Shown: one piece after another, positions 2,360 through 16,717 of the stretch | How positions within the stretch are numbered: position 1 is the stretch's first letter | Layout: every line of letters begins with the position of its first letter | Assembly (NCBI GenBank): GCA_007133205.1 | Contig: SLND01000154.1 | Location: 1-37,330 of the forward strand | Reading direction: 5' to 3' | DNA length: 37,330 nucleotides | DNA from: Natronospiraceae bacterium | Lineage (GTDB): Bacteria > Pseudomonadota > Gammaproteobacteria > Natronospirales > Natronospiraceae | Program-made: the position numbers and the translations under genes | Notes under the pieces: model-generated | Databases searched by the model: none | What the model was told of the DNA's origin: nothing | What the model saw: the letters and a program-made list of their open reading frames with translations, nothing else

Positions 2360-3895
2360 CTAAGCGAACAGTCCATGAAGGTACCAGACCCCTGCCCGGC
2401 GGTCCCGGAAAATCCAGAGCTCTCTTCCCGCACGGCTGCGTGCCCGGTAATAGTCGCGGGCCACATCCGCCCCTTCCCACCAGCCGGTCTCGATCCGCTC
2501 AGGCCCCGCAAGCAGGGTCATGTCGCCGGGGATGCCACCGCCCTCTTCCAGCATCCGCGGCGTCTCCAGCAACCAGCAGGGCCGATCGGCACGTCCTCCT
2601 TCCGGCTCCGTCACGTCGCTGCCGGCCAGCCGCCAGGCCCGTTCGGGGCGGTGGTCGGCACAGGTCGCGAGGGTATGGACCGCATCCGGTCCGAGCCGGG
2701 CGTGGAGGGACTCGAAAAGCGCTTCCACCTCCTCGCCCGAATCCGCTTCGCGGAACAGTGCCACGCTCCGTCCCCGGTAGGCCCTGAGCGGTCCACTCAC
2801 CAGGCGCAGTGCCCGCACCGCCCGGGTCAGGGCAACCCGCTCCAGGCGCACCCGGAAAAGCCGTGCCAGATGATCCGGATGCCGGTAATTGCCGGCAAGG
2901 CCGAGCCGGATCGGGGTCTCCTCACCGCCGTGATGACGGCAATACAGGCGCAGTTCGTCGGTGGTGCTGTCATGGCGACGGAGAAAGCTCACCGCCGATT
3001 CCAGCAGGGGCTCGAGGCCGGCCATGATCCGCTCGCGATCCCCCGTCTCGGCGGGCAGTTCCAGGGATTCCTCGAAGCTCAGTGCCCCCCGCCAGCCGGG
3101 GCGCGGGTCCGGCACGCGCCCCAGGGCCCGATCCAGAGAACGCACGAAAGCAGCCCCGAAACGCCGGCCCAGGCCATCCCGCGGCAGGCGCATGACATCG
3201 GCGAGCCGGCGGACACCGATGCCCGCCAGGGTCCGGGCGGTGCCCGGATCCGGAGCCAGACAATCCGGCGACAATTCGCCCAGCCTGCCGGCAAGCAGGG
3301 TGGTATCGGTCACCGGCCTGCTGTCGCCGGCCCGGGCAAGCCACTCCGCCGCCAGCGGGGTGGGTGCGATTGCCATCACCGGCAGATGTCCGGCCGCGGC
3401 AACCTGTGTCTCCAGCCGCCGACGGAGCGCAGCGATACCGCCGAACAGGGACAGGCTGCCTCCGATCTCCAGCAGCACGGCAGCGGGCGGCGCGAGACTC
3501 ACCAGGGAGCTGAAGCCTTCTGCCATTTGCGCCACGTTTTCCAGGCTCGCCCGCTCCCGATCCGGATTCCGGCGTTGCAGGATGGGGGCATGCACCCGCG
3601 CCAGGGCATCGGACAGGCGCATCCGGGGCCGGACGCCCGCAGTCAGCGCGGCCTGGTTGCAGCCGATGACCCGGGTGGCGGCCCCTTCCCCTGTCACCAC
3701 CAGACAGGGTTCATGGGCATCCCGCCAGGTACCGGCGACCGCTTCGAATGGCAGGTCAGGCAGGCGCAGGCACAACCACAGGATTCGCCGACGGGGGCGG
3801 CTCCCGGACCGGGGTCCGGGGAGGCGTTTACGGGGGCGCGGACGGCGCGGCGTCGCTGCCGCCGGCGGAAACAGGGGCAGTTCATGGTTCTTCAT
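2360..3895 (-). CDS. imuB: Y-family DNA polymerase-like protein ImuB
   Basis: LWLCLRLPDLPFEAV N-terminus, ImuB/DinP-like body, position directly after imuA. Start chosen at MKNHELPLFP. Confidence 0.85.
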   Translation of the reverse strand: MKNHELPLFPPAAATPRRPRPRKRLPGPRSGSRPRRRILWLCLRLPDLPFEAVAGTWRDAHEPCLVVTGEGAATRVIGCNQAALTAGVRPRMRLSDALARVHAPILQRRNPDRERASLENVAQMAEGFSSLVSLAPPAAVLLEIGGSLSLFGGIAALRRRLETQVAAAGHLPVMAIAPTPLAAEWLARAGDSRPVTDTTLLAGRLGELSPDCLAPDPGTARTLAGIGVRRLADVMRLPRDGLGRRFGAAFVRSLDRALGRVPDPRPGWRGALSFEESLELPAETGDRERIMAGLEPLLESAVSFLRRHDSTTDELRLYCRHHGGEETPIRLGLAGNYRHPDHLARLFRVRLERVALTRAVRALRLVSGPLRAYRGRSVALFREADSGEEVEALFESLHARLGPDAVHTLATCADHRPERAWRLAGSDVTEPEGGRADRPCWLLETPRMLEEGGGIPGDMTLLAGPERIETGWWEGADVARDYYRARSRAGRELWIFRDRRAGVWYLHGLFA

Positions 3896-3909
3896 CGCAT
3901 GTCTCGGAC

Positions 3910-4521
3910 TCAGGGGCCCAGCAACACCCGTCCTCCCCGGCCCCCCGGGCTCTTGAGGATTTCGACTTCCAGGCCTTCGTTGCGGGGCGCAAGCAACAGC
4001 CTCAGGGTCGCCGGGGACGGACTCCGGGCCGCGCCAGATTCGCGAAACAGGTAGGCGGGAATCCCGCCCGCGCCGGCGGCCAGTTGCAGCCGCCGAAAAT
4101 GATGCCTCCCCTGTCCGCATCCCCAGGTCAGCACCGCCGCACAACTGCCGGAGCGCAATCCCTGTTCGGCAGCCCATACCCGGTCTTCCACGTTATCCGG
4201 CCAGGTGACGATATTGCAGGCCGGCGCCAGACCGGCCGCGGCCAGGGCGGGTGCGTAGGGAATCCAGGGGGGTGAAAGCCACAGGATCCGACCGCCCCTG
4301 CCGGCCAGGTCCCGCAGTGCCGGCAGCAGCAGGCGCAATTCGCCCACGCCCCATTGCGCGGACAGGATTTCACTCAGGCTGCCGCGCGGCCAGCCACCTC
4401 CCGGCAATCGCGCATCCAGGGCCGGAAAACCGGTGGCGACATGACCGGCACCAGCGCCATCGTCCCGGCGGGGCCGGAAGATGCGCGGATCGGCAAGCAG
4501 TGTCTGCAGTGAGTTATCCAT
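3910..4521 (-). CDS. imuA: ImuA, RecA/SulA-like translesion synthesis accessory protein
   Basis: TGFPALDARLPGGGWPRGSLSEIL motif; lies between lexA and imuB on the same strand. Confidence 0.85.
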   Translation of the reverse strand: MDNSLQTLLADPRIFRPRRDDGAGAGHVATGFPALDARLPGGGWPRGSLSEILSAQWGVGELRLLLPALRDLAGRGGRILWLSPPWIPYAPALAAAGLAPACNIVTWPDNVEDRVWAAEQGLRSGSCAAVLTWGCGQGRHHFRRLQLAAGAGGIPAYLFRESGAARSPSPATLRLLLAPRNEGLEVEILKSPGGRGGRVLLGP

Positions 4522-4574
4522 TGCCCGACCATGGCTCTGGGCAATGCCTCAAGCCGGCGACGACAGGGACAGGG

Positions 4575-5183
4575 TCACTGCACGTGCCCGTTGCGGATGA
4601 CGCCGACCACCACGCCTTCAAGCACCAGGGACTGGCGCCTGCGATCCACCTTGATCGGCTCGAAGTCCGGATTCTCCGGCAGCAGGCGGATTTCACGCCC
4701 ACGCTGGTGATAACGCTTGACGGTGACCTCGTCATCCAGGCGGGCCACCACGATCTGACCGTTTCTCACATCGGGGGCACGGTGCACGGCCACGAGATCG
4801 CCTTCCAGAATACCGGCATCGCGCATGCTCATGCCCTTCACCTGCAGCAGGTAATGCGCCTGGGGACGGAAGATGCCCGGATCCAGACGATAGCGGGTTT
4901 CGATATGCTCCTCGGCCAGCACCGGACTGCCCGCGGCCACCCGCCCCACCACCGGCAGGCCGGCCTCTTCCTCCTCGACCAGACGAATCCCCCGGGAAGC
5001 ACCCGAGGAAAGCTCGATCGCGCCCTTGCGGTGCAGGGCCCGCAGATGGCTTTCGGCGGCATTGGGGGAACGGAAACCGAGATGTTCGGAAATCTCGGCC
5101 CGGGTGGGGGGACGGCCGGTGTTCGCAATGGCCTGGCGGATGAGATCGAGTACTTCCTGCTGGCGGGCAGTCAGTTCCTCCAT
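4575..5183 (-). CDS. lexA: LexA SOS repressor
   Basis: N-terminal wHTH ([12 protein letters not shown]), cleavage site AAGSP, catalytic S in [10 protein letters not shown] and K in DEVTVKRY. Confidence 0.95.
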
Positions 5184-5270: not shown

Positions 5271-6692
5271 TTAACCGGCCATTTCGGAATCCTTGCCGTT
5301 ACCCAGCTTGCGGTACAGGGTCTGGCGGCTGACCCCGAGCAGGGCCGCCGCCCGCCGCTTGTTGCCATCCACCTGGTCGAGTACGTGCTGGATGTAGCGC
5401 AGCTCCAGCTCATCCAGGGTGGGCAGGACCGGCCCGTCGGTCAGCGAGGCCAGCAGGCTGTCCGCCGCGGCCTGGCCGCCACCCGCCGAGGACGCGTTGT
5501 CCGGACGGTAATTGCGAATCCGGGTGGGCAGGTGCTCGGCCTCTACCACTTCTCCGTGCGAGAAGGTCACCGCCCGCTCGATCGCATTCTGGAGCTCGCG
5601 TACGTTGCCCGGAAAGGGGTACTGGCGCAGGGCCTCCATGGCCGATTCTGAGAATCCGCTCGCGTTCCGTCCCTGCTGGAGGTTGTAGCGGCGCAGCATC
5701 TGCGCGGCCAGCAGCTCCAGATCCTTGCCACGCTCACGCAGTGGCGGAATCGACAGGGCGAAGGTTTCCAGACGATAGAACAGATCTTCGCGGAACTGCC
5801 CCTCTTCCACGAGGGCATCGAGATCCCGGTTGGTGGCGGCCAGTACACGCACGTCCACCTGTCGATCGGACTCGCCCCCGACCGGACGGATCATGCCCTC
5901 CTGCAGTACCCGCAACAGCTTGGCCTGCAGGTTCATGGGCATTTCCCCGATTTCATCCAGCAGCAGGGTACCGCCGTGGGCGCGGGTAAAGATGCCCTCG
6001 TGGCGCTTCACGGCGCCGGTAAAGGCCCCGGCCGCATGGCCGAAGAACTCGCTTTCCAGCAGATCCGGCGGGATGCCGGCGCAGTTGACCGCGAGAAAGG
6101 GGCCGTCACTGCGCTCGCTTTCCTCGTGTACCGCCCGCGCCACCAGCTCCTTGCCGGTACCACTCTCGCCCATGACCAGCACCGGTCCGCTGGCACGGGC
6201 CACACTGCGGATCTGGTCATAGAGGGCCTGCATGGGACGGCTCTCCCCCACCAGGCCGTGAAAGTCATCGCCACTGAATACTTCACGAAAGCGCTGCACT
6301 TCACTGCGCAGCCGGCGATTCTCCAGTACCCGGGTGACGGTGAGCAGCAGGTGATCGACATCGATGGGCTTGGTGAGGAATTCATCCGCCCCCGCCTTGA
6401 GCGCTTCCACCGCCTGTTCGATGCTGCCGAAGGCCGTCAGGATCACGAAGGCAGGGGGGAGATGGAGCTCGGTGGTTTCCCGCAACAGGCTCATGCCATC
6501 CGCCCCGGGGAGACGAAGATCGCTGAGTATCAGATCCGGTGACCATTCGGAGATCAGCGGCAGGGCCTTTTCCACCGAATCCACCGCGCGCACTTCCCGC
6601 CCGGTCTCTTCCAGTTCCTCGACCATCAGTTTCGCCAGGCCGGCGTCATCCTCCACCACCAGAACCCGGTCACGTTTCTCGTTGTCACTCAT
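5271..6692 (-). CDS. NtrC-family sigma54-dependent response regulator (REC-AAA+-Fis HTH)
   Basis: Receiver domain (VEDD, SDLRLPG, LTKP), Walker A GESGTGKE, GAFTGA sigma54-contact loop, C-terminal HTH NKRRAAALLGVSRQTLYRKL. Confidence 0.95.
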   Translation of the reverse strand: MSDNEKRDRVLVVEDDAGLAKLMVEELEETGREVRAVDSVEKALPLISEWSPDLILSDLRLPGADGMSLLRETTELHLPPAFVILTAFGSIEQAVEALKAGADEFLTKPIDVDHLLLTVTRVLENRRLRSEVQRFREVFSGDDFHGLVGESRPMQALYDQIRSVARASGPVLVMGESGTGKELVARAVHEESERSDGPFLAVNCAGIPPDLLESEFFGHAAGAFTGAVKRHEGIFTRAHGGTLLLDEIGEMPMNLQAKLLRVLQEGMIRPVGGESDRQVDVRVLAATNRDLDALVEEGQFREDLFYRLETFALSIPPLRERGKDLELLAAQMLRRYNLQQGRNASGFSESAMEALRQYPFPGNVRELQNAIERAVTFSHGEVVEAEHLPTRIRNYRPDNASSAGGGQAAADSLLASLTDGPVLPTLDELELRYIQHVLDQVDGNKRRAAALLGVSRQTLYRKLGNGKDSEMAG

Positions 6693-8260
6693 GCCTTGCT
6701 CACCACGCCCTCCCGGGCACTCGCGGTACCCGGCACGGGCTGCTGTTGTCCATCTTCCGTTTCATCCGCCGAGCCACCCGCGGACGAGTCCGCTGTTTCC
6801 GCACCTTCGGCTCCCGCAGGCAGATACAGGGTGAATCGCGCCCCACCCCAGTCGTTCGCATCCACTTCGATCTCGCCGTAGTGCTCGTTGGCAATCCCGT
6901 GCACTACCGAGAGACCAAGACCGGTCCCCTCGCCCACCGACTTGGTGGTGAAAAAGGGCTCGAACAGGCGCGAGCGATCCTTTTCGGAAATGCCGTCCCC
7001 ATCGTCATCAACATCAAAACGTACTCTGTCGCCTTCCAGTGTCCATGTGATCCGGACCCGGGAATCTGCCGCCTGTACCGCGTTGCGCAACAGGTTGACC
7101 AGCGCCTGCTCGATCCGGATGGGGTCGGCATGCAGACGGGGCCCGGGCAGTTCGCCTTCGGTTTCGATTGCAATGCCACGCTCGCTGGACAGTTCCGATA
7201 CCTGTTCCACGGAACTGCGGGCCAGATTGCCGCCATGCAGGGTCTTGCGGTCACTCGCGGAAGTGCGTCCGAAATCAAGCAACTGGCGGACAATGTGACT
7301 CATGCGCTGAACCTCGGCGCGGATATCCTCGAGATTGGCCTGCTGCTTGTCGGACAGGTCGCCTTCGCGCAGCACCCGGCGCGCGCGGCCATCCACTACC
7401 GACAACGGCGCACCCAGCTCGTGGGCAATACCCGCCGCCAGGCGACCGATGGCCGCCAGTTTTTCCGAATGTCGCAGGCGCTCTTCCAGGTCGAGCTGCG
7501 TCAGGCGGCGTTCGCTGATCTCCTTTTCGGCCTGCTCGATTGAATCGAGCATTTCGTTGAGCGCCTGTGCCAGCGTCAGCACCTCACGTGGCCCCGCCGC
7601 GCCGGCACGCGCATCACGCTCACCACGGCGGACCCGGCCCATGGTGCCGACCAGGGATTCAATATGACGCCCCACCGCCCGGTGATAACCGAACAGCACC
7701 AGGGCCATCACCACCAGGGTTCCGATACCGACCGCGCCGATCATCTGGCGCTGGATCACCTGCATGTATTCCACGAAATCACTCGCACGGCGGGTCACCT
7801 GAAGCCAGCCAATGATCTGTCCGGTGGTCTCGTCGGTCAGTGCGACGTAGTGGGAATAAACGTCGCGCCCTTCCATCTGTTCGTACTGCCCGGTTTCCTG
7901 CTCCTCGGCGCCGATATCGCGGATCGCTTCCGGTTCCTGCTGTGGCCGGCCCGGCCCCACGTGGGCGAGCTGCTCGCCATGAGCGTTGTAGACATAGGCG
8001 CCATAGACCTGATCGAGCTGAAACACGGATTCCAGGGCCTGGCGGACACTGCCCTCGCGTTCCCGCTCCAGGCTGTAGCCGACCGGCAACTGAATCGCCC
8101 GTGCCACCAGTTCCATGTCTTCCTGCATGCGCTGTTCGGCACGCTGCTCCATGGTGGCAATCACGGCCGTCATCCCGAGCGTGATCGCTACCAGCAATGG
8201 CAGCACGATGCCGACGACCAGGCGCCAGCGCAGGCTCAGGGGAAATCGGGGAATAGGCAT
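6689..8260 (-). CDS. Membrane sensor histidine kinase (periplasmic sensor, HAMP, HisKA, HATPase_c)
   Basis: H-box GIAHELGAPLSVVDG, N-box LLRNAVQAAD, G-boxes DDDGDGI and GTGLGLSVVHGI. 4-bp overlap with the regulator gene. Start at 8260 preferred (GGAGG RBS); an ORF start at 8320 is also possible. Confidence 0.9.
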   Translation of the reverse strand: MPIPRFPLSLRWRLVVGIVLPLLVAITLGMTAVIATMEQRAEQRMQEDMELVARAIQLPVGYSLEREREGSVRQALESVFQLDQVYGAYVYNAHGEQLAHVGPGRPQQEPEAIRDIGAEEQETGQYEQMEGRDVYSHYVALTDETTGQIIGWLQVTRRASDFVEYMQVIQRQMIGAVGIGTLVVMALVLFGYHRAVGRHIESLVGTMGRVRRGERDARAGAAGPREVLTLAQALNEMLDSIEQAEKEISERRLTQLDLEERLRHSEKLAAIGRLAAGIAHELGAPLSVVDGRARRVLREGDLSDKQQANLEDIRAEVQRMSHIVRQLLDFGRTSASDRKTLHGGNLARSSVEQVSELSSERGIAIETEGELPGPRLHADPIRIEQALVNLLRNAVQAADSRVRITWTLEGDRVRFDVDDDGDGISEKDRSRLFEPFFTTKSVGEGTGLGLSVVHGIANEHYGEIEVDANDWGGARFTLYLPAGAEGAETADSSAGGSADETEDGQQQPVPGTASAREGVVSKA

Positions 8261-8317
8261 CCGAATGACCTCCGGCGACCCGCCGGGTCGGGATTGGCGG
8301 GACGGGAAAAACGACGA

Positions 8318-8336
8318 CATGTCACATATTTTGACA
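8318..8336. promoter_or_regulatory. Putative activator-binding dyad CATGT-CACATATTTTG-ACA (TGTC-N9-GACA) upstream of the first DUF4168 gene
   Basis: Inverted repeat sharing the form CATGT-N11-ACA with sites upstream of three other DUF4168 genes; 89 bp before the -24 GG. Confidence 0.5.
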
Positions 8337-8424
8337 CCACAACCCCCGCGGGTTCAATCGCCAACGCACCCACCGGCTGATGGACGGCCCGGACAAGGCG
8401 GCCCTGCTGCCGGGTGGCGCGGCA

Positions 8425-8440
8425 TGGCATGATACCTGCT
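8425..8440 (+). promoter_or_regulatory. Putative sigma54 promoter TGGCATGATACCTGCT
   Basis: -24 GG / -12 GC with 10-nt spacing, matching TGGCACG-N4-TTGCW closely; 70 nt before the start codon. Confidence 0.7.
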
Positions 8441-8509
8441 AGACAACTTTCAGCCGGAAGCGTTTGGTATGGACTGACCCGAGGTTCCCTGAATACGGAG
8501 CGAAATCCA

Positions 8510-8923
8510 ATGAAGACAACAATTCGACTGTCGATCCTGTTCGTACTGTGCCTGGCCATCGCGCCCCTGGCGCTGGCCCAGGCATCGGTGACCCAGGACG
8601 CGGCCCAGGAGGCCCCGGCCGATGATGATGCGCTGGAGGAGTCGGTACCCGAGGTCTCCGATGCCCAGATCGAGGCCTTTGCCGAGGCCTATGCGGCGCT
8701 CGACCGGGTTCGCACGAAGTATGAGCGCAAACTGCAGGAGACCGATGACCAGGATGAGGCGCGAGAGCTTCAGCTTGAAGCGAACGAGGCCTACGTCGAG
8801 GCCATCGAGGAGAGCGGCATGGACCCGGAGGAATACCAGCAGGTCGCGACCGCCGTGAATGCGGACCCGGAGGTTCGCGCCCGGGTCACGGAACTTCTGG
8901 ACGAGGCGGATGACAGCCCGTAA
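8510..8923 (+). CDS. Secreted DUF4168-type protein, paralog A
   Basis: Signal peptide MKTTIRLSILFVLCLAIAPLALA; core VSDAQIEAFAEAYAALDRVRTKY...AIEESGMDPEEYQQVATAVNADPEVRARV. Confidence 0.8.
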   Translation: MKTTIRLSILFVLCLAIAPLALAQASVTQDAAQEAPADDDALEESVPEVSDAQIEAFAEAYAALDRVRTKYERKLQETDDQDEARELQLEANEAYVEAIEESGMDPEEYQQVATAVNADPEVRARVTELLDEADDSP

Positions 8924-8975
8924 GAGAGGAAAGTTTCTTACTTTGGCAGAGCAAACCGAAACGACGAGGAGAACC

Positions 8976-9431
8976 ATGAAGACACATCGCAGCAAGCACT
9001 TCACCACCAGCATGATTGCCATCCTGGCGGGACTGGCCCTGAGCTCCGGGACTCTGCTCGCCCAGGAACCGCCGGAAGAAGGCCCGGCGGAACCCCCCGA
9101 AGAAGCCGCAGAGCCGCCGGAGGAAGAGGCCGAACCCATGGAACAGGAGCATCAGCCGGTCGAAGTGGACGATGACAAGGTCGAGGCCTTCGCCCAGGCC
9201 TATCTGGCGCTGACCGAGGTACGCGAAGATTATTCCGAGCGCCTGCAGGACACCGAAGACAGCGAGGAGATCCAGTCCCTGCAGCACGAGGCCAGCGACG
9301 CCATGGCTGAAGCGATTGAAGACGCCGGCCTGGAAGTGGATGAATACCAGGAGATTGCCGCGGCCATGAGCGCTGACCCGGAACTGCGGGACAAGATCAC
9401 CGAGAAGGTCTCCAGGTTGCGCGAAGAATGA
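8976..9431 (+). CDS. Secreted DUF4168-type protein, paralog B
   Basis: Signal peptide, P/E-rich linker, core KVEAFAQAYLALTEVREDYSERL...AIEDAGLEVDEYQEIAAAMSADPELRDKI. Confidence 0.8.
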   Translation: MKTHRSKHFTTSMIAILAGLALSSGTLLAQEPPEEGPAEPPEEAAEPPEEEAEPMEQEHQPVEVDDDKVEAFAQAYLALTEVREDYSERLQDTEDSEEIQSLQHEASDAMAEAIEDAGLEVDEYQEIAAAMSADPELRDKITEKVSRLREE

Positions 9432-9904
9432 CGGAGCGTTCAATGCTGCCACTCAAGCTCACAACCGCCCTCGTTGTTGCCGGGATTTTTCTGATCGGCC
9501 TGGCCGGCGTGGAGGCCGGCCAGGTGCAGCCAGTCGAAGATCCGGACGAACCACCGCAACAGCAACAGGACCGGTCGGCGGCCCCGGATCCGGATGAGCC
9601 GGACCTTCCGGAGATCGACAAGGACACCCTGGCCGACTTCGTCGAGGCCCACATTCAGGTTACGGAGGTGCGCGAGAAGTATGCCGGCAAACTGGAGGAA
9701 GCCGACGAGTACGAGCAGGTACAGGACCTGCAGGAACAATCCGAGACTAGTGCAAATGAAGCGATCGAGGATTCCGGCATGACGGTGGGCAGCTACGAGG
9801 CGGTCTTGGTGGCCATCAACGCAGACCCCGAGCTTAGGGACAAACTGAACCGCAAGCTCGAGGATGCCGGGGTAGCGCCCCATTCAGGCAGTGGCCTCCG
9901 GTAA
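9428..9904 (+). CDS. Secreted DUF4168-type protein, paralog C
   Basis: ATGA overlap with paralog B; core LADFVEAHIQVTEVREKYAGKL...AIEDSGMTVGSYEAVLVAINADPELRDKL. Confidence 0.8.
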   Translation: MTERSMLPLKLTTALVVAGIFLIGLAGVEAGQVQPVEDPDEPPQQQQDRSAAPDPDEPDLPEIDKDTLADFVEAHIQVTEVREKYAGKLEEADEYEQVQDLQEQSETSANEAIEDSGMTVGSYEAVLVAINADPELRDKLNRKLEDAGVAPHSGSGLR

Positions 9905-9929
9905 ACAATCGCCGGCATGAGTTCGTGGA

Positions 9930-9954
9930 AACCCCCGGGCCTGTCCCGGGGGTT
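9930..9954. terminator. Stem-loop after paralog C (10-bp perfect stem AACCCCCGGG/CCCGGGGGTT)
   Basis: Perfect inverted repeat with 5-nt loop, 25 nt after the stop codon; no T-tract, so function is uncertain. Confidence 0.45.
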
Positions 9955-10004
9955 GCCCGGTCCACCCCGCTCCGACCCTCGCTGCTGCCTGCCCCCCGCC
10001 GTAA

Positions 10005-10023
10005 CATGTTCCACATTGCAACA
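10005..10023. promoter_or_regulatory. Putative activator-binding dyad CATGT-TCCACATTGCA-ACA upstream of paralog D
   Basis: TGTT-N9-AACA dyad, 113 bp before the -24 GG. A second dyad, TGTC-N10-GACA, lies at 10061-10078. Confidence 0.5.
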
Positions 10024-10135
10024 TCGTACGAAGACTCTACGACAATTTTCTGGTTCGGCCTGTCACCGGGGCAAGACACCATTTTTTGTTTATGCTCAGT
10101 TACTTACACATTCCAGAAGGCTTGCAGGCAAATCC

Positions 10136-10151
10136 TGGCACGCAACCTGCA
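10136..10151 (+). promoter_or_regulatory. Putative sigma54 promoter TGGCACGCAACCTGCA
   Basis: Near-consensus -24 (TGGCACG) and -12 (TGCA) with correct GG-N10-GC spacing; 43 nt before the start of paralog D. Confidence 0.8.
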
Positions 10152-10193
10152 CCCTCTTCCCCCGCGTTTTTGCAACCTGTAAGGAGTAATCGC

Positions 10194-10628
10194 ATGAGCA
10201 TGAACAAGAGCATTCTCGCAACGCTGATCGCCGGTTTCGTGGCGGCCCCGCTGGCCGTGGCTCAGCAGCAGCCCCCGCAGGAACAGCAGGAGCAGCCGCC
10301 GCAGGAAGAAGCTCAGCCGATGCCTGAGCAGCAGGAAGCTCCTGACGTCAGCGATGCCCAGATCGATGCTTTCGTTGAAGCACATGTCAACGTGAACGAC
10401 GTTCGCGAGGAATACACCGAGCGTCTGCAGCAGGCCGAAGACCAGGAAGAAGCCCAGCAGCTGCAGCAGGAAGCCAACCAGGCCATGCAGGAAGCCATTG
10501 AAGACTCCGGCATGGACATCGAGGAGTACGAAGAAGTGGCCATGGCCGTGAACGCCGATCCCGAAGTCCGGGACGACGTGATGGAGCGCCTTGAAGAAGC
10601 CGGCGTGGACACCGGCGCGCCGCAATAA
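10194..10628 (+). CDS. Secreted DUF4168-type protein, paralog D
   Basis: RBS aaggag; signal peptide MSMNKSILATLIAGFVAAPLAVA; QQ/PP/EE-rich linker; core DAQIDAFVEAHVNVNDVREEYTERLQQAEDQEEAQQLQQEANQAM. Confidence 0.85.
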   Translation: MSMNKSILATLIAGFVAAPLAVAQQQPPQEQQEQPPQEEAQPMPEQQEAPDVSDAQIDAFVEAHVNVNDVREEYTERLQQAEDQEEAQQLQQEANQAMQEAIEDSGMDIEEYEEVAMAVNADPEVRDDVMERLEEAGVDTGAPQ

Positions 10629-10672
10629 GTGGTGAAGGCTGACGGGGCCTTCGGCCCCGACTCCTCAATGAG

Positions 10673-10700
10673 TGCCCCGCCCCCGGCGGGGCATTTTTTT
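10673..10700 (+). terminator. Rho-independent terminator after paralog D
   Basis: tGCCCCGCCcccGGCGGGGCATTTTTTT; preceded by another hairpin CGGGGCC-TTC-GGCCCCG at 10643-10659. Confidence 0.85.
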
Positions 10701-10779
10701 GTCTCAAAGTTTCGGGCGCTGCACTAACGTAGACTCTGGATCCTGTGCCCATGCACAATTTCACTGTGAGTTCGGGAAA

Positions 10780-10798
10780 CATGTTTCAGACCAAGACA
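10780..10798. promoter_or_regulatory. Putative activator-binding dyad CATGT-TTCAGACCAAG-ACA upstream of paralog E
   Basis: TGTT-N9-GACA, embedded in palindrome GAAACATGTTTC (10776-10787); 132 bp before the -24 GG. Confidence 0.5.
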
Positions 10799-10929
10799 AG
10801 ACACCCCGTCCTCACGTACCGAACCCCGGACCTTCCCTTTTGCTGACGGCACCCGACTGATTCCCAACAACCCGGCAAGATCAGGCACTTGGAATCCTCG
10901 CCGGAGGATTGTCCTTCCTGCGCAAAAGT

Positions 10930-10945
10930 TGGCATGTCCTATGCA
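10930..10945 (+). promoter_or_regulatory. Putative sigma54 promoter TGGCATGTCCTATGCA
   Basis: GG-N10-GC spacing; same form as the other three; 70 nt before the start of paralog E. Confidence 0.7.
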
Positions 10946-11014
10946 TTTCGTACGTAGCGTCACCGATTGGCGCCCGAAGGATTTCAGGCGAACGCAATGC
11001 AAGGAGGTCAAGCC

Positions 11015-11467
11015 ATGAAGACAGGCAAGATCCTTATTGCAAGCGCAGCAGCCGCATTTCTGATCAGCCCGCTGGCATTGGCCCAGCAGCAACAGCCGCC
11101 ACAGCAGCAGCCTCCGCAGGAACAGGAGCAACCGCCGCAACAGGAGGCCCAGCCGATGCCTCAGGAAGAGGAAATTCCGGATGTCTCCGAATCCCAGATT
11201 GATGCCTTCGTGGATGCCCACGTGGCCGTCAATGATGTCCGAGAGGAGTATACCGAATGGCTGCAGGCGGCAGAGGATCAGGAAGAAGCCCAGCAGTTGC
11301 AGCAGGAAGCCAATGAGGCCATGACCTCGGCAATCGAGGACAGCGGCATGGACGTGGAGGAATACGAGGAAGTCGCCATGGCCGTGAATGCCGACCCGGA
11401 AGTCCGGGATGAGGTCATGCAGCGCCTGGACGAAGAAGGCGTTGATACCGGGGCCCAGCCCCGGTAA
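11015..11467 (+). CDS. Secreted DUF4168-type protein, paralog E
   Basis: RBS aaggaggt; signal peptide ending LALA; QQQQPPQQQPPQEQEQPPQQ linker; core closely resembling D and F. Confidence 0.85.
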   Translation: MKTGKILIASAAAAFLISPLALAQQQQPPQQQPPQEQEQPPQQEAQPMPQEEEIPDVSESQIDAFVDAHVAVNDVREEYTEWLQAAEDQEEAQQLQQEANEAMTSAIEDSGMDVEEYEEVAMAVNADPEVRDEVMQRLDEEGVDTGAQPR

Positions 11468-11534
11468 ACACGGACGCCGGCTGGCGGCCGGACCCAAGCG
11501 GGACTGGTCCGTCAGCCGCCCTTTACCAACATGC

Positions 11535-11589
11535 CCGGAATGTAGCCCGTTCCTCCCCTTCCCTCCCCTCCCTGGCGGGCTCATTCCGG
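11535..11589. repeat. Imperfect inverted repeat (15/14 nt arms, one bulged base) with 26-nt pyrimidine-rich loop
   Basis: CCGGAATGTAGCCCG ... CGGGCTCATTCCGG between paralogs E and F. Confidence 0.6.
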
Positions 11590-11591
11590 AG

Positions 11592-11610
11592 CATGTTTTA
11601 TTTTGTTACA
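11592..11610. promoter_or_regulatory. Putative activator-binding dyad CATGT-TTTATTTTGTT-ACA upstream of paralog F
   Basis: CATGT-N11-ACA; 113 bp before the -24 GG, the same distance as at paralog D. Confidence 0.45.
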
Positions 11611-11722
11611 CCCAATTCCATCGGTTGAGGCCCATTGCCAGGCCCCACCATCCTCCCCATTTTCCTCTTTTTCATATAAGAATCAATAAGCTACATTGTT
11701 TTTCCTGAGAAAGGCCTGGATA

Positions 11723-11738
11723 TGGCATGCAATCTGCT
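11723..11738 (+). promoter_or_regulatory. Putative sigma54 promoter TGGCATGCAATCTGCT
   Basis: GG-N10-GC spacing; same form as the other three; 48 nt before the start of paralog F. Confidence 0.7.
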
Positions 11739-11785
11739 TATACTTTGGTGCTGATTGTATATCCATTACTCGAGAGGACAGGAAA

Positions 11786-12196
11786 ATGAACAAACGGACC
11801 TATCTCGTGGCCGCCCTGGCCGGCGCCTTTCTGCTGAGCCCCCTGGCCATTGCCCAGGAACAGCAGCCCCAGCAGGAAGCCCAGCCGATGCCGGAACAGC
11901 AGGAAGTTCCGGATGTGACTGACGAGCAGATCGATGCTTTCGTGCAGGCCCATATCAACCTGGACGAAGTTCGTCAGGAGTTTACCCAGCGCCTGCAGCA
12001 GGCCGAGGATCAGGAAGAGGCCCAGCAGCTCCAGCAGGAAGCCAACGAAGCCATGTTCGCGGCGATCGAGGATGCCGGCATGGAAGTCGAAGAATACGAG
12101 GAAGTCGCGATTGCGGTGAATGCCGACCCGGAGGTCCGGGAACAGGTCACCAGCCGCCTGGAAGATGAGGGCTTCGACACCGGCGCCGCCCGGTAA
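11786..12196 (+). CDS. Secreted DUF4168-type protein, paralog F
   Basis: Signal peptide MNKRTYLVAALAGAFLLSPLAIA; core DEQIDAFVQAHINLDEVRQEFTQRLQQAEDQEEAQQLQQEANEAM. Confidence 0.85.
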   Translation: MNKRTYLVAALAGAFLLSPLAIAQEQQPQQEAQPMPEQQEVPDVTDEQIDAFVQAHINLDEVRQEFTQRLQQAEDQEEAQQLQQEANEAMFAAIEDAGMEVEEYEEVAIAVNADPEVREQVTSRLEDEGFDTGAAR

Positions 12197-12245
12197 AGCC
12201 TGCTGCGGCTTGTCCGGACGTTCTCCGGATTGCCCAGAGAGAAGG

Positions 12246-12275
12246 AAAACCCCGCACATGCGGGGTTTTCTTTTT
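12246..12275 (+). terminator. Rho-independent terminator after paralog F
   Basis: AAAACCCCGCAcaTGCGGGGTTTTCTTTTT. Confidence 0.9.
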
Positions 12276-12374: not shown

Positions 12375-13025
12375 ATGACACCGATGGAACAGTCCCTCAT
12401 CGATGCCATCCAGAATGGCGACGCGCAGACTGTGACGGATCTCCTCGCCACCACCCCCGGACTTGCCGATACCCGCACACAGGGTGGCGTCAGTGCTCTG
12501 CTCCTGGCCATCTATGGCGGACGCCGATCGATCGCCCGCCAGATTGCCGAAAACCGGGAAGGCCTGGATATATTCGAGGCGGCCGCCCTCGGTCATCGAT
12601 CTCACCTGGAAAGAAGCCTTGAACTGGACCCGGAAGGCGCTGAACACTACAGCGCCGATGGACTGACCCCGCTGCATCTCGCAGCCCGCTTCAACCAGCC
12701 GGAGGCCTGCCAGTTGCTGCTGGATCGTGGCGCTGATCCGGACCGGATCAGCGACAACCCGCTGGGCTTTCGTCCACTCCACGCTGCTGTCGCCGGACAC
12801 AGCCTGGAAGCGGCAGAACTGCTTCTTGACGCCGGCGCCACCCCGGATGCACGTCAGGGAGATGGCCTAACTTCCCTGATGGCGGCTGCAGCCACGGGCC
12901 AGATTGAAGTGGTGGAATTGCTGCTGGATCACGGTGCAGACCCGGACCTGAGGAGCAAGGAAGGACTCACCGCCCGTGACCTGGCCCGCACCCAATCTTT
13001 CGAGGATATCGAAAGCCTGCTCTGA
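12375..13025 (+). CDS. Ankyrin-repeat protein
   Basis: Repeats DGLTPLHLAARFNQPEACQLLLDRGADPD, FRPLHAAVAGHSLEAAELLLDAGATPD, DGLTSLMAAAATGQIEVVELLLDHGADPD. Confidence 0.85.
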   Translation: MTPMEQSLIDAIQNGDAQTVTDLLATTPGLADTRTQGGVSALLLAIYGGRRSIARQIAENREGLDIFEAAALGHRSHLERSLELDPEGAEHYSADGLTPLHLAARFNQPEACQLLLDRGADPDRISDNPLGFRPLHAAVAGHSLEAAELLLDAGATPDARQGDGLTSLMAAAATGQIEVVELLLDHGADPDLRSKEGLTARDLARTQSFEDIESLL

Positions 13026-13075: not shown

Positions 13076-16000
13076 TCAACTGCCGACCAGGCGGAACCGG
13101 CGGCGCAACAAGGCCGGCACCTGATCCGCGGGTACCGGATGGCTTGCGAGAAAGCCCTGAAATTCCTTGCAGCCACGAGCCTTGAGGAATTCAAGTTGTT
13201 CCAGGGTTTCCACGCCCTCCGCCAAAACGTCCAGGTTCAGATTGCGCCCCATGTCAATCACTGCCCCGGTAATAGCTTCGTCATCCGAATCACCCGGGAT
13301 ATCCTCGATGAAGGACTTGTCGATTTTCAGTTTGCGAATGGGGAAGCGCTTGAGATAATTCAGGCTTGAATATCCCGTCCCGAAATCATCAACACTCAGG
13401 CCCACGCCAATACGACTCAGGTCACTGAGCATTCGCACACTTTCCTCCACTTCCTCCATGACCGTGCTTTCGGTCAGTTCCAGCTCCAGAAGTTCCGGAG
13501 CCAGCCCCGTGTGCGCCAGGACCTTCTGGATTACGCCCACAATATTGCGTCGACGAAACTGAATCGCGGAAAGATTGACCGTAACCCGCGTATCCGCAAA
13601 TCCCTGATCCTGCCAGAGACAGGCCTGCCGGCAGGCCTCGGACAAGACCCACTCGCCAATTTCCATGATCATGCCGGTCTGCTCGGCCACCGGAATGAAC
13701 ACCGAGGGAGAAACCAGACGCCCGTTATGGTTCCACCGGACCAGGGCCTCAAGGCCGACAATGTCCCCACTCTCGATGTCCACCTGTGGCTGATAATGGA
13801 GTACGAAGCGGTTATCCTGAATCGCACGCCGTAACTGGTTTTCCAGGGAAAGACGCTCCCACGCGGCTACGCTGAGATCATGGGTAAAGAACTGAAAATT
13901 GTGACGGCCGCGTTCCTTGGCCTGGTACATTGCGGCGTCGGCATTACGCACCAATTCCTCAATTCCGGAAGCATCCCCGGGGTACAGACTGATACCGATA
14001 CTTGGTGTCACCCGCAGCTCATGGTGGCCTACCACATAGGGCGCACTCAACCGGTCAATCAGTTTGCGTGCGACGGTGGCTGCCTCATTGGCCGAATTCA
14101 GGTCGGGAAGCATGATGAGGAATTCATCACCCCCCTGACGACTCACCGTATCCTGGCCCCGGATACTCGCCTGCAGCCTCCTCCCGACCTGCTCCAATAG
14201 CTGATCCCCGACGGCGTGCCCCAGCGAATCATTGACATTCTTGAATCGGTCCAGGTCGAGAAAAAGCACTGCCAGGTGATTGCCGTCGCGCTTTGCCCGG
14301 GCCATTTCCTGTTCCATTCGGTCCCGCAACAGGGTGCGATTGGGCAAACCGGTCAACAGATCGTAGTGCGCCAGGTAATGTATCTGTCGTTCCGCGTCCT
14401 TGCGCTCGGTGATATCGGTGATCACACCGTCACAATAGAGCATGTTTCCTTCTGCATCATGAATGGCTACGGCATTGTTCATCCCAACAAAACGGGAGCC
14501 ATCCCGGCGAACGAATTCGACCTCTTCCCCACGGTACCCGTTGTGATGCAGAAGCTTGTGCTGGAGCTCATCCCGCCGTTCCGCCGAGACATAAAGTATG
14601 GGCGCACGTACCTGCTTCATTTCCTCCGGGCTGTCATACCCGAACATTTCCGCCAGAGCCTGATTGACATAGACCAGTTGGCCTTCCGGCGTACTCCGAT
14701 AGATCCCATCGGTGATATTGCTGGTAATCGAGGACAGGAGCTGGCGGTTCTCCTCCAGGGCGCGGACGGTATGCTGTCGCTGCAACGCATTACCGAAGCT
14801 GGCGGCCGCCGCCAGCAGGGTTGCCAACTGGCTTTCCGTCCAGTATCGCTCGTGGCGACAGTCGTCGAATCCGATCATGCCTTCGAACACGCCGTCCCGA
14901 ATCATCGGCACCAGCAGTAGTGCCTTGATGGCCTGACGCTCCATGATGCTTCTAGCCGGCTGTGGCAGTTCTCGTGTCAGCACTCGCAGGGACTGTCCGC
15001 GTTTCAGGGTCTCGTACCAGTAGTCAGGCAGCTTGTGCCAGTGGAGATCATGCATTTCCGGGTTGCCAATCTGCGCCGTCACACCTTCGCGCACCCACTC
15101 GTAGAGCATGCTCTGAGCCGGCAGTCCATCCTCGGAATGAGGATGGACCTCAAAGATATAGGCACGATCCGCATCCGCCGCCTCTCCAATAATCTTCAGG
15201 GACTGGTTCACTGCGGCATCAAAATCCGGATTCCGGATCAGTTCGGTCAGGGATCCGGCAATGGCTTCCAGCAGTACTTCCCGTTGCGCCAGTGCCTCCG
15301 TGCCCTCCTTTCGTTCGGTGATGTCCTGTATGAATCCCATGAAATAGAGCGGTTCATCGCTGCTGTCACGAACCAGCGCCAGACTCACATCCACCCACAG
15401 GATTTCGTTATCAGGATCCAGGAGCCGAACCTCCCGGGTCGTCGAGACCTCCCTTCGGTCCAGCAGGGATTGCGAATCCACCAGCATGCCTCGCTGATCG
15501 TCCGGATGGACCACATCCAGTGCCGGCTGCCGGAGCAAGGCTTCCCTGTCTCTGCCCAGCAATTCGCACAGACGTGGCGTCACTTTCTGCCAATGCCCGG
15601 CCAGATCCAGATGCACCACCATGACCAGGGAAAGCTCCTCGGTACGTCGCCGACGTTCCTCGCTTTCCCGCAGGGCCTGGGTCATGCGGTCGGCTATCTG
15701 AACCGCCCGCGCACGGGTACGGTAACCGGACCAGAGGAGCCCGGTGAGCAACAGGCTGACCAGTACACCGCCCCAGAGAATCATGGCGGGAACCGGACCA
15801 GGCTGGAATTCCTGGCTCAATTCGACTTGCCATGTCCGGTCTGCCACCTGCACCGTGTCGCTGATATCCAGGCCATTACCGTTGTCCGGAGCGCCATCCG
15901 ATTCCATCAGGATCTCCGGCGCATCTTCCGTCAAGTCCACCACTCGAACATGATAGGCGCTTGCGCTATCTCCGATATCACCGAGCAGGGAACGGGCAGG

Positions 16001-16717
16001 CAGGGCCAGTCCCAGCCAGCCCTGGGCGAAATCGAGTGCGTAGGGAGATTCCAGGGGCATGGCGAATACCAGCCCCGGGACCGGCTCCGAGTCCTCATCG
16101 TCGCCCTCTGAGGGTGCCAGTTCCAGCAAACCCGAGACGGCAGCCGTACCGGTTTCGGTGGCAGCCAACAGGGCCGCCTCTGGAGCTTCCGAACTACAGA
16201 CATCGAATCCGTCCGCCACGCGGGGATCGGGATCCGCGAGGAAGGTCAGAACGCAGTAAACTGCGGCACCGGTACCCGGCTGAACGGTAAAGTCCGCCCC
16301 ACCTTGTTCACGCATGAATGCCTGGAACCCGGGCACCTGCTCCGGTTCCAGGCGGGTAATGTAGGCAAGTGCTTCGACCTCGGGGTAGTTCTCGCGCAGG
16401 TCGAGTTCCCCGATGAAACGGTTCCAGTGATCGGCACCCGGATTTTCAAGGAGTGTAAACGCGGCTGCACCGGCATGAAGCATGGAAAGATAGCGGGTAG
16501 TCTGATCACTGAGATCAGCGCTCAAACGGGACATTTCACCAATCAGTTCCCGTTCCTGCGCAGTGCGCTCGGCGCTCAGACTGAAGTTCCAGGCACCCAG
16601 GGTGACCGCGAGCAGGGTGGCCAGCAGTGCAATGAGGCCCATTCCGGCCAGTGAGTTCCCGGATCTGCGTGCCCTGGAAACCTGCGACCGGGGCTGATTG
16701 CCACTCTCTTCAGACAA
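13076..16717 (-). CDS. Membrane CHASE-PAS-GAF-PAS-GGDEF-EAL c-di-GMP turnover protein
   Basis: 1213 aa; CHASE-like periplasmic N-terminus between TM segments, intact GGDEF (RQGGDEFLIML), EAL (VGLEALVRW) and DDFGTGYSSL. Confidence 0.9.
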   Translation of the reverse strand: MSEESGNQPRSQVSRARRSGNSLAGMGLIALLATLLAVTLGAWNFSLSAERTAQERELIGEMSRLSADLSDQTTRYLSMLHAGAAAFTLLENPGADHWNRFIGELDLRENYPEVEALAYITRLEPEQVPGFQAFMREQGGADFTVQPGTGAAVYCVLTFLADPDPRVADGFDVCSSEAPEAALLAATETGTAAVSGLLELAPSEGDDEDSEPVPGLVFAMPLESPYALDFAQGWLGLALPARSLLGDIGDSASAYHVRVVDLTEDAPEILMESDGAPDNGNGLDISDTVQVADRTWQVELSQEFQPGPVPAMILWGGVLVSLLLTGLLWSGYRTRARAVQIADRMTQALRESEERRRRTEELSLVMVVHLDLAGHWQKVTPRLCELLGRDREALLRQPALDVVHPDDQRGMLVDSQSLLDRREVSTTREVRLLDPDNEILWVDVSLALVRDSSDEPLYFMGFIQDITERKEGTEALAQREVLLEAIAGSLTELIRNPDFDAAVNQSLKIIGEAADADRAYIFEVHPHSEDGLPAQSMLYEWVREGVTAQIGNPEMHDLHWHKLPDYWYETLKRGQSLRVLTRELPQPARSIMERQAIKALLLVPMIRDGVFEGMIGFDDCRHERYWTESQLATLLAAAASFGNALQRQHTVRALEENRQLLSSITSNITDGIYRSTPEGQLVYVNQALAEMFGYDSPEEMKQVRAPILYVSAERRDELQHKLLHHNGYRGEEVEFVRRDGSRFVGMNNAVAIHDAEGNMLYCDGVITDITERKDAERQIHYLAHYDLLTGLPNRTLLRDRMEQEMARAKRDGNHLAVLFLDLDRFKNVNDSLGHAVGDQLLEQVGRRLQASIRGQDTVSRQGGDEFLIMLPDLNSANEAATVARKLIDRLSAPYVVGHHELRVTPSIGISLYPGDASGIEELVRNADAAMYQAKERGRHNFQFFTHDLSVAAWERLSLENQLRRAIQDNRFVLHYQPQVDIESGDIVGLEALVRWNHNGRLVSPSVFIPVAEQTGMIMEIGEWVLSEACRQACLWQDQGFADTRVTVNLSAIQFRRRNIVGVIQKVLAHTGLAPELLELELTESTVMEEVEESVRMLSDLSRIGVGLSVDDFGTGYSSLNYLKRFPIRKLKIDKSFIEDIPGDSDDEAITGAVIDMGRNLNLDVLAEGVETLEQLEFLKARGCKEFQGFLASHPVPADQVPALLRRRFRLVGS

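Follow-up and report, generated by a model that had tools for sequence, protein, structure and literature searches.

Analysis of the 37,330-nucleotide contig SLND01000154.1 (C39; hereafter the window, meaning this whole stretch) of a metagenome-assembled Natronospiraceae genome (G000; assembly of 2.07 Mb, 84% complete) revealed a two-component system that is very probably dedicated, through sigma54, to the control of DUF4168 genes and is conserved in other genomes. At this locus, an NtrC-type response regulator and a membrane-bound sensor histidine kinase are divergent from six tandem DUF4168 (PF13767) genes, D1 to D6, in four units. This layout had been proposed in a first-pass annotation and was borne out by Pfam domains and coordinates. 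The predicted regulon is apparently undescribed; a literature search for DUF4168 and PF13767 found no paper. Gene content, sites, conservation, specificity and co-occurrence were computed. Three genomes of the same family (G001, G002 and G003) were used for close comparison, and orthologs were surveyed in two samples of 370 class genomes and 398 phylum genomes, with three kinase-positive genomes common to both.

The regulator gene (5271-6692, minus strand) encodes a receiver domain, a sigma54-interacting AAA+ domain in which the GAFTGA motif can be read, an AAA lid and a Fis-type helix-turn-helix (PF00072, PF00158, PF25601 and PF02954). Receiver, GAFTGA-bearing AAA+ domain and Fis-type helix-turn-helix together identify a sigma54-dependent regulator of the NtrC type. 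The gene overlaps by 4 bp with that of the kinase on the same strand, whose product is a membrane protein with a periplasmic sensor region followed by HAMP, HisKA and HATPase domains (Pfam). The kinase probably starts at position 8260 (6689-8260, 523 amino acids) and not at the end of the longer open reading frame (6689-8320), because its orthologs align only from about residue 21 of the long frame onward and GGAGG precedes the corresponding ATG. On the kinase-regulator side of the intergenic gap, no near-consensus -24/-12 element was found and sigma54 autoregulation of the pair is therefore not indicated.

All six DUF4168 genes lie on the plus strand and exceed the PF13767 gathering cut-off of 25.8 bits (43.6-61.5 bits). 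D1 (8510-8923, E 5e-14), whose product carries a signal peptide, D2 (8976-9431, E 2e-16) and D3 (9428-9904, or from an ATG at 9443; E 6e-11), which overlaps the end of D2, are close or overlapping and form one unit. D4 (10200-10628, or from an ATG at 10194; E 7e-15), D5 (11015-11467, E 3e-15) and D6 (11786-12196, E 4e-13) each follow a gap of approximately 300 to 390 bp. The expected sigma54-like -24/-12 element was present before every unit, namely TGGCATGATACCTGCT (8425-8440), TGGCACGCAACCTGCA (10136-10151), TGGCATGTCCTATGCA (10930-10945) and TGGCATGCAATCTGCT (11723-11738), all on the coding strand and with predicted 5' leaders of approximately 40-60 nt. The pattern TGGCAYGN4HTGCH (GG-N10-GC spacing) yielded 13 matches in the entire assembly versus 2 for the reversed-pattern control, and four of the 13 fall in the 3.3-kb stretch of the array. 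Other matches in the window genome and its relatives precede genes that read, judged from their protein starts, as glnA, pspA, flgA, pilA and CheW-like. Several of these genes are classical sigma54 targets, so that genuine sigma54 promoters of this lineage are recovered by the pattern. Control of the array from a sigma70 promoter was rejected, as a single weak match was obtained, no more than in shuffled sequences.

The shared upstream dyad of the first-pass annotation was likewise recovered before all four units, with top matrix scores: CATGTCACATATTTTGACA (8318-8336) in the gap between the kinase gene and D1, CATGTTCCACATTGCAACA (10005-10023), CATGTTTCAGACCAAGACA (10780-10798) and CATGTTTTATTTTGTTACA (11592-11610), all listed on the plus strand from dyad pattern and matrix. 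The first of these could also act on the kinase and regulator genes with which D1 shares its upstream gap. The 19-bp consensus CATGTYnCAnnnTGnrACA is common to 12 DUF4168 promoters in four genomes (G000-G003), where the distance from its start to the downstream -24 element is 107-150 bp. The dyad matrix was evaluated in a leave-one-genome-out scheme, each genome being tested with a matrix from the three others, and the dyad was the best match within 300 bp upstream at all 12 promoters. With the matrix built from the other three genomes, the four dyads of the window took ranks 1-4 of 74,624 positions; a symmetrised matrix was noisier than this directional one. Of the remaining near-consensus sigma54 sites that were inspected, among them those of glnA, pspA, flgA and pilA, none had a dyad score above 5.1 bits, versus at least 20.7 bits at DUF4168 promoters. 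Genome-wide scanning for the regulon by degenerate pattern matching gave 7, 5, 4 and 4 dyads in G000, G001, G002 and G003, respectively. Twelve of these 20 matches are the DUF4168 promoters, and only one of the remaining eight (contig C77 of the window genome) is followed by a -24/-12 element of even moderate quality (10 of 12 positions). The predicted regulon consists essentially of DUF4168 genes alone.

In the three same-family genomes the locus is syntenic and comprises a serine-dehydratase-like gene, an ankyrin gene, DUF4168, the kinase-regulator pair, lexA and two further genes. Each of these genomes has one or two DUF4168 genes at the locus and further ones elsewhere that are preceded by the same element and dyad; among the genomes compared, only that of the window has the six-gene array. 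Scattered DUF4168 genes with the same sites occur in G001-G003 and in G133, which suggests that the pair probably acts in trans on unlinked DUF4168 genes. Regulator orthologs are 48-76% identical and most of them adjoin DUF4168 genes. Both genes of the pair directly adjoin DUF4168 in G000-G004, G101, G133, G136, G149, G169, G226, G239, G317 and G378, the kinase gene does so in G444, G502, G527, G547 and G610, and the regulator gene alone in G037; adjacency of the pair or of the kinase spans 13 families. In other gammaproteobacterial families the pair is either divergent from DUF4168 or upstream on the same strand, and -24/-12 elements are accompanied by dyads that typically read CATGTGNC-N4-TGNCACA. 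When the dyad matrix of the one family was applied to 12 loci of other families, the best upstream match ranked 1-7 of 24,000-40,000 positions. The helix-turn-helix of the regulator reads GVSRQTLYRKL in Natronospiraceae and mostly GIGRRTLYRRL in the other families, a difference that, as a correlation only, fits the parallel shift in the dyad half-sites.

Kinase orthologs were detected in 14 of the 370 class genomes and 15 of the 398 phylum genomes, and DUF4168 in 36 and 47 genomes, respectively. Every genome with a kinase ortholog also encodes DUF4168 (14/14 and 15/15). With shared ancestry ignored, strong -24/-12 elements precede 19 of the 29 DUF4168 units of genomes with the kinase versus 4 of 29 in genomes without it; the reverse strand gave 1 of 58. 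The strict score missed two genomes (G502 and G444), whose sites read TGGCACG-N4-TTGA/TTGG on inspection, and G239, in which the element precedes an intervening secreted open reading frame. This Gly/Pro-rich frame ahead of DUF4168 (locus L138, 1624-2600) may encode a second output of the regulon in G239. The search of other genomes that the first-pass annotation had suggested, for DUF4168 genes next to such pairs with GG-N10-GC upstream, was positive, with orthologous pairs adjacent and elements and dyad present; the proposed sigma54-dependent control of DUF4168 by the pair is supported by this comparative evidence.

The DUF4168 proteins share a common plan, in which a signal-peptide-like start (mostly ending in ALAQ or similar) is followed by a Q/P/E-rich linker and the DUF4168 domain. 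They are small, acidic and helical, and no cysteine can be read in the six sequences outside the signal peptides. AlphaFold predicted a confident four-helix domain for D4 (residues 52-133). A PDB fold search with this model returned nothing better than E 2.2, a PDB sequence search gave no match at a meaningful E-value, and the family matches listed at E values up to 10 included no ZraP, CpxP or Spy family. PF13767 occurs across Gammaproteobacteria, in other classes of Pseudomonadota and, among the control genomes, in at least one cyanobacterium; a search of genome contigs with the alignment of DUF4168 yielded one locus, on a Natronospira contig. Elsewhere in the window genome, two longer proteins (contig C164, 5962-6879 and 9261-10097; locus L052) show weak similarity to DUF4168.

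In the proposed mechanism, the membrane kinase would sense a periplasmic signal and phosphorylate the NtrC-type regulator, which would bind the 19-bp dyad approximately 80-150 bp upstream and, at the -24/-12 element, use its GAFTGA-containing AAA+ domain to open the complex of sigma54 and RNA polymerase. The output would be the small helical DUF4168 proteins, exported via their signal peptide, and their gene is amplified at the regulator locus of the window genome, where six copies stand in tandem, and partly dispersed in relatives. In this scheme the signal, the phosphorylation and binding steps, the activation and the role of DUF4168 are inferred. ZraP, a periplasmic chaperone, is responsive to envelope stress (PMC4987338), and by analogy with zraP-zraSR the DUF4168 proteins would most likely be an envelope stress-protective factor and perhaps a feedback partner of the kinase. 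A further-reaching possibility, which we put forward tentatively and would not favor over its negation, is that DUF4168 represents an unrecognised class of periplasmic stress proteins (chaperone or membrane protectant) and kinase feedback partners, which replaces ZraP or CpxP in a widespread gammaproteobacterial sigma54 envelope-stress system and whose dosage has been tuned by tandem amplification in a soda-lake lineage.

Several observations weigh against a dedicated DUF4168 regulon. The Fisher values for the co-occurrence of kinase and DUF4168 (4.7e-16 in the class sample and 1.3e-15 in the phylum sample) ignore shared ancestry, and the envelope-response role is suggested by analogy. The gene for sigma54 itself, rpoN (PF04552), was not found in the 84%-complete assembly. 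As all three same-family genomes contain rpoN and sigma54-type sites precede glnA and pspA in the window genome, this absence is probably due to incompleteness. In family f165 (G272, G356 and relatives), the kinase ortholog is more distant (34-38% identity) and is encoded apart from DUF4168, whose genes show no clear -24/-12 element. One extra divergent DUF4168 copy in each of G001, G002 and G003 lacks such a promoter as well, and DUF4168 is present in many genomes without the kinase. Strong -24/-12 elements precede DUF4168 genes in G097 and G214, which have no kinase ortholog; a search of G097 for the dyad was negative. Together, the f165 family, the promoterless copies and these two genomes indicate that DUF4168 has uses outside the regulon, and the divergent copies of G001-G003 and all f165 members are predicted to be such outside genes.

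Two details of these exceptions were noted separately. Dyad-like sites (CATGTATCTATTTGTTACA and TTTGTTACTGAGTTTTACA) stand before DUF4168 at f165 loci L202 (G696) and L213 (G708) without any sigma54 element and may represent rewired promoters. At loci L114 (G097) and L111 (G214), another kinase-like gene (26% identity) lies immediately upstream of the DUF4168 genes, and sigma54 may here be linked to DUF4168 independently.

Among the alternatives, it is conceivable, if rather unlikely, that DUF4168 is mainly a sensory accessory that binds the periplasmic domain of the kinase and sets its activity, in a feedback like that of CpxP or ZraP. No kinase ortholog was found without DUF4168 in either genome sample, the DUF4168 proteins are secreted, small and often encoded divergently from the kinase, like ZraP, and the title of a study cited in PMC4987338 (Appia-Ayme 2012) has ZraP repressing ZraSR. 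However, the six copies present here and the occurrence of DUF4168 in many kinase-less genomes suggest a function beyond feedback. Still less probable is sigma54 control of the array by another enhancer-binding protein such as NtrC, with other targets for the adjacent pair. A second NtrC-like kinase-regulator pair is indeed encoded on contig C3 of the genome and the adjacent regulator could have unlinked targets, but the dyad marks DUF4168 promoters specifically and is missing from the glnA site, the adjacency of the pair to DUF4168 holds across 13 families, and the few other dyads in these genomes have hardly any sigma54 element beside them. Although the six genes are paralogous and could have inherited their upstream sequence with duplication, the possibility that elements and dyads are functionless products of chance or duplication was rejected as highly improbable, given the rarity of the sites (4 of 13 genome-wide in the array), the matrix ranks, the recurrence of dyad and element in the same order and at similar spacing in other genera and families, and the poor alignment of the four upstream regions outside the motifs (z 0 to 3), which shows that the motifs are not simply duplicated sequence.

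Terminator-like hairpins, recognised purely by pattern matching, lie 3' of D4 (10670-10696, plus strand) and 3' of D6 (12245-12270), where the stem is listed on the minus strand and a T-run also follows on the plus strand. Directly past the array lies an ankyrin-repeat gene (12375-13025), whose orthologs (63-65%) stand between or beside DUF4168 and the kinase-regulator pair in G001-G003; neither a dyad nor a -24/-12 element of its own was seen and it is possibly linked to the DUF4168 system. Beyond it, a large putative GGDEF/EAL-like sensor protein can be read from the sequence (13076-16717, minus strand). On the other side of the pair (2360-5183), a LexA gene (Pfam) is followed by two genes that read as a SulA/ImuA-type protein and a Y-family polymerase (ImuB-like), and this lexA cluster remains beside the pair in G001-G003.

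With these results PF13767, a domain of unknown function, gains a regulatory context consisting of a conserved sensor, an activator, a predicted binding site and a promoter, through which the role of DUF4168 proteins becomes testable. The kinase-activating signal, once found, would tell under which condition DUF4168 matters.

The comparison with known systems places the locus near several of them. PrsK-PrsR of the PEP-CTERM/XrtA system also combines a histidine kinase and a sigma54-type regulator that control exported proteins, and here the window proteins scored below the equivalog cut-offs (regulator 396 of 502.6 bits, kinase 86.6 of 300 bits). CpxR is an OmpR-type regulator that works without sigma54. 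This sets CpxP-CpxAR apart, as does the lack of detected similarity of DUF4168 to CpxP; a kinase with a small periplasmic partner protein is common to both, CpxP being a periplasmic negative regulator of CpxRA (PMC10848872). Like GlrK-GlrR (QseE-QseF), whose dyad is listed as TGTC(N)10GACA (PMC4987338), the window pairs an NtrC-type regulator with TGTC/GACA half-sites, but its dyad has a spacer of 9, its targets differ and the GlrR equivalog score is 353 of 763 bits. In the case of zraP-zraSR of E. coli and Salmonella, ZraR drives the divergent sigma54 promoters of zraSR and zraP (PMC4987338), whereas the window has no near-consensus element toward its kinase-regulator genes, and its effector is present in up to six copies and could, as far as tested, be related to ZraP neither by sequence nor by solved folds. 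Because of this lack of ZraP-like similarity and of scores far below the ZraR and ZraS equivalog cut-offs (346.2 of 760 bits and 154.5 of 479 bits, respectively), the locus was not filed as a ZraPSR member. Its kinase core is nevertheless closest to ZraS among solved structures, and both systems have a membrane kinase and an NtrC-type sigma54 activator divergent from a sigma54-type gene for a small exported or periplasmic protein. The ZraPSR-like envelope-response class would gain a two-component regulon that acts through sigma54 and is defined by its sequence in 13 families.

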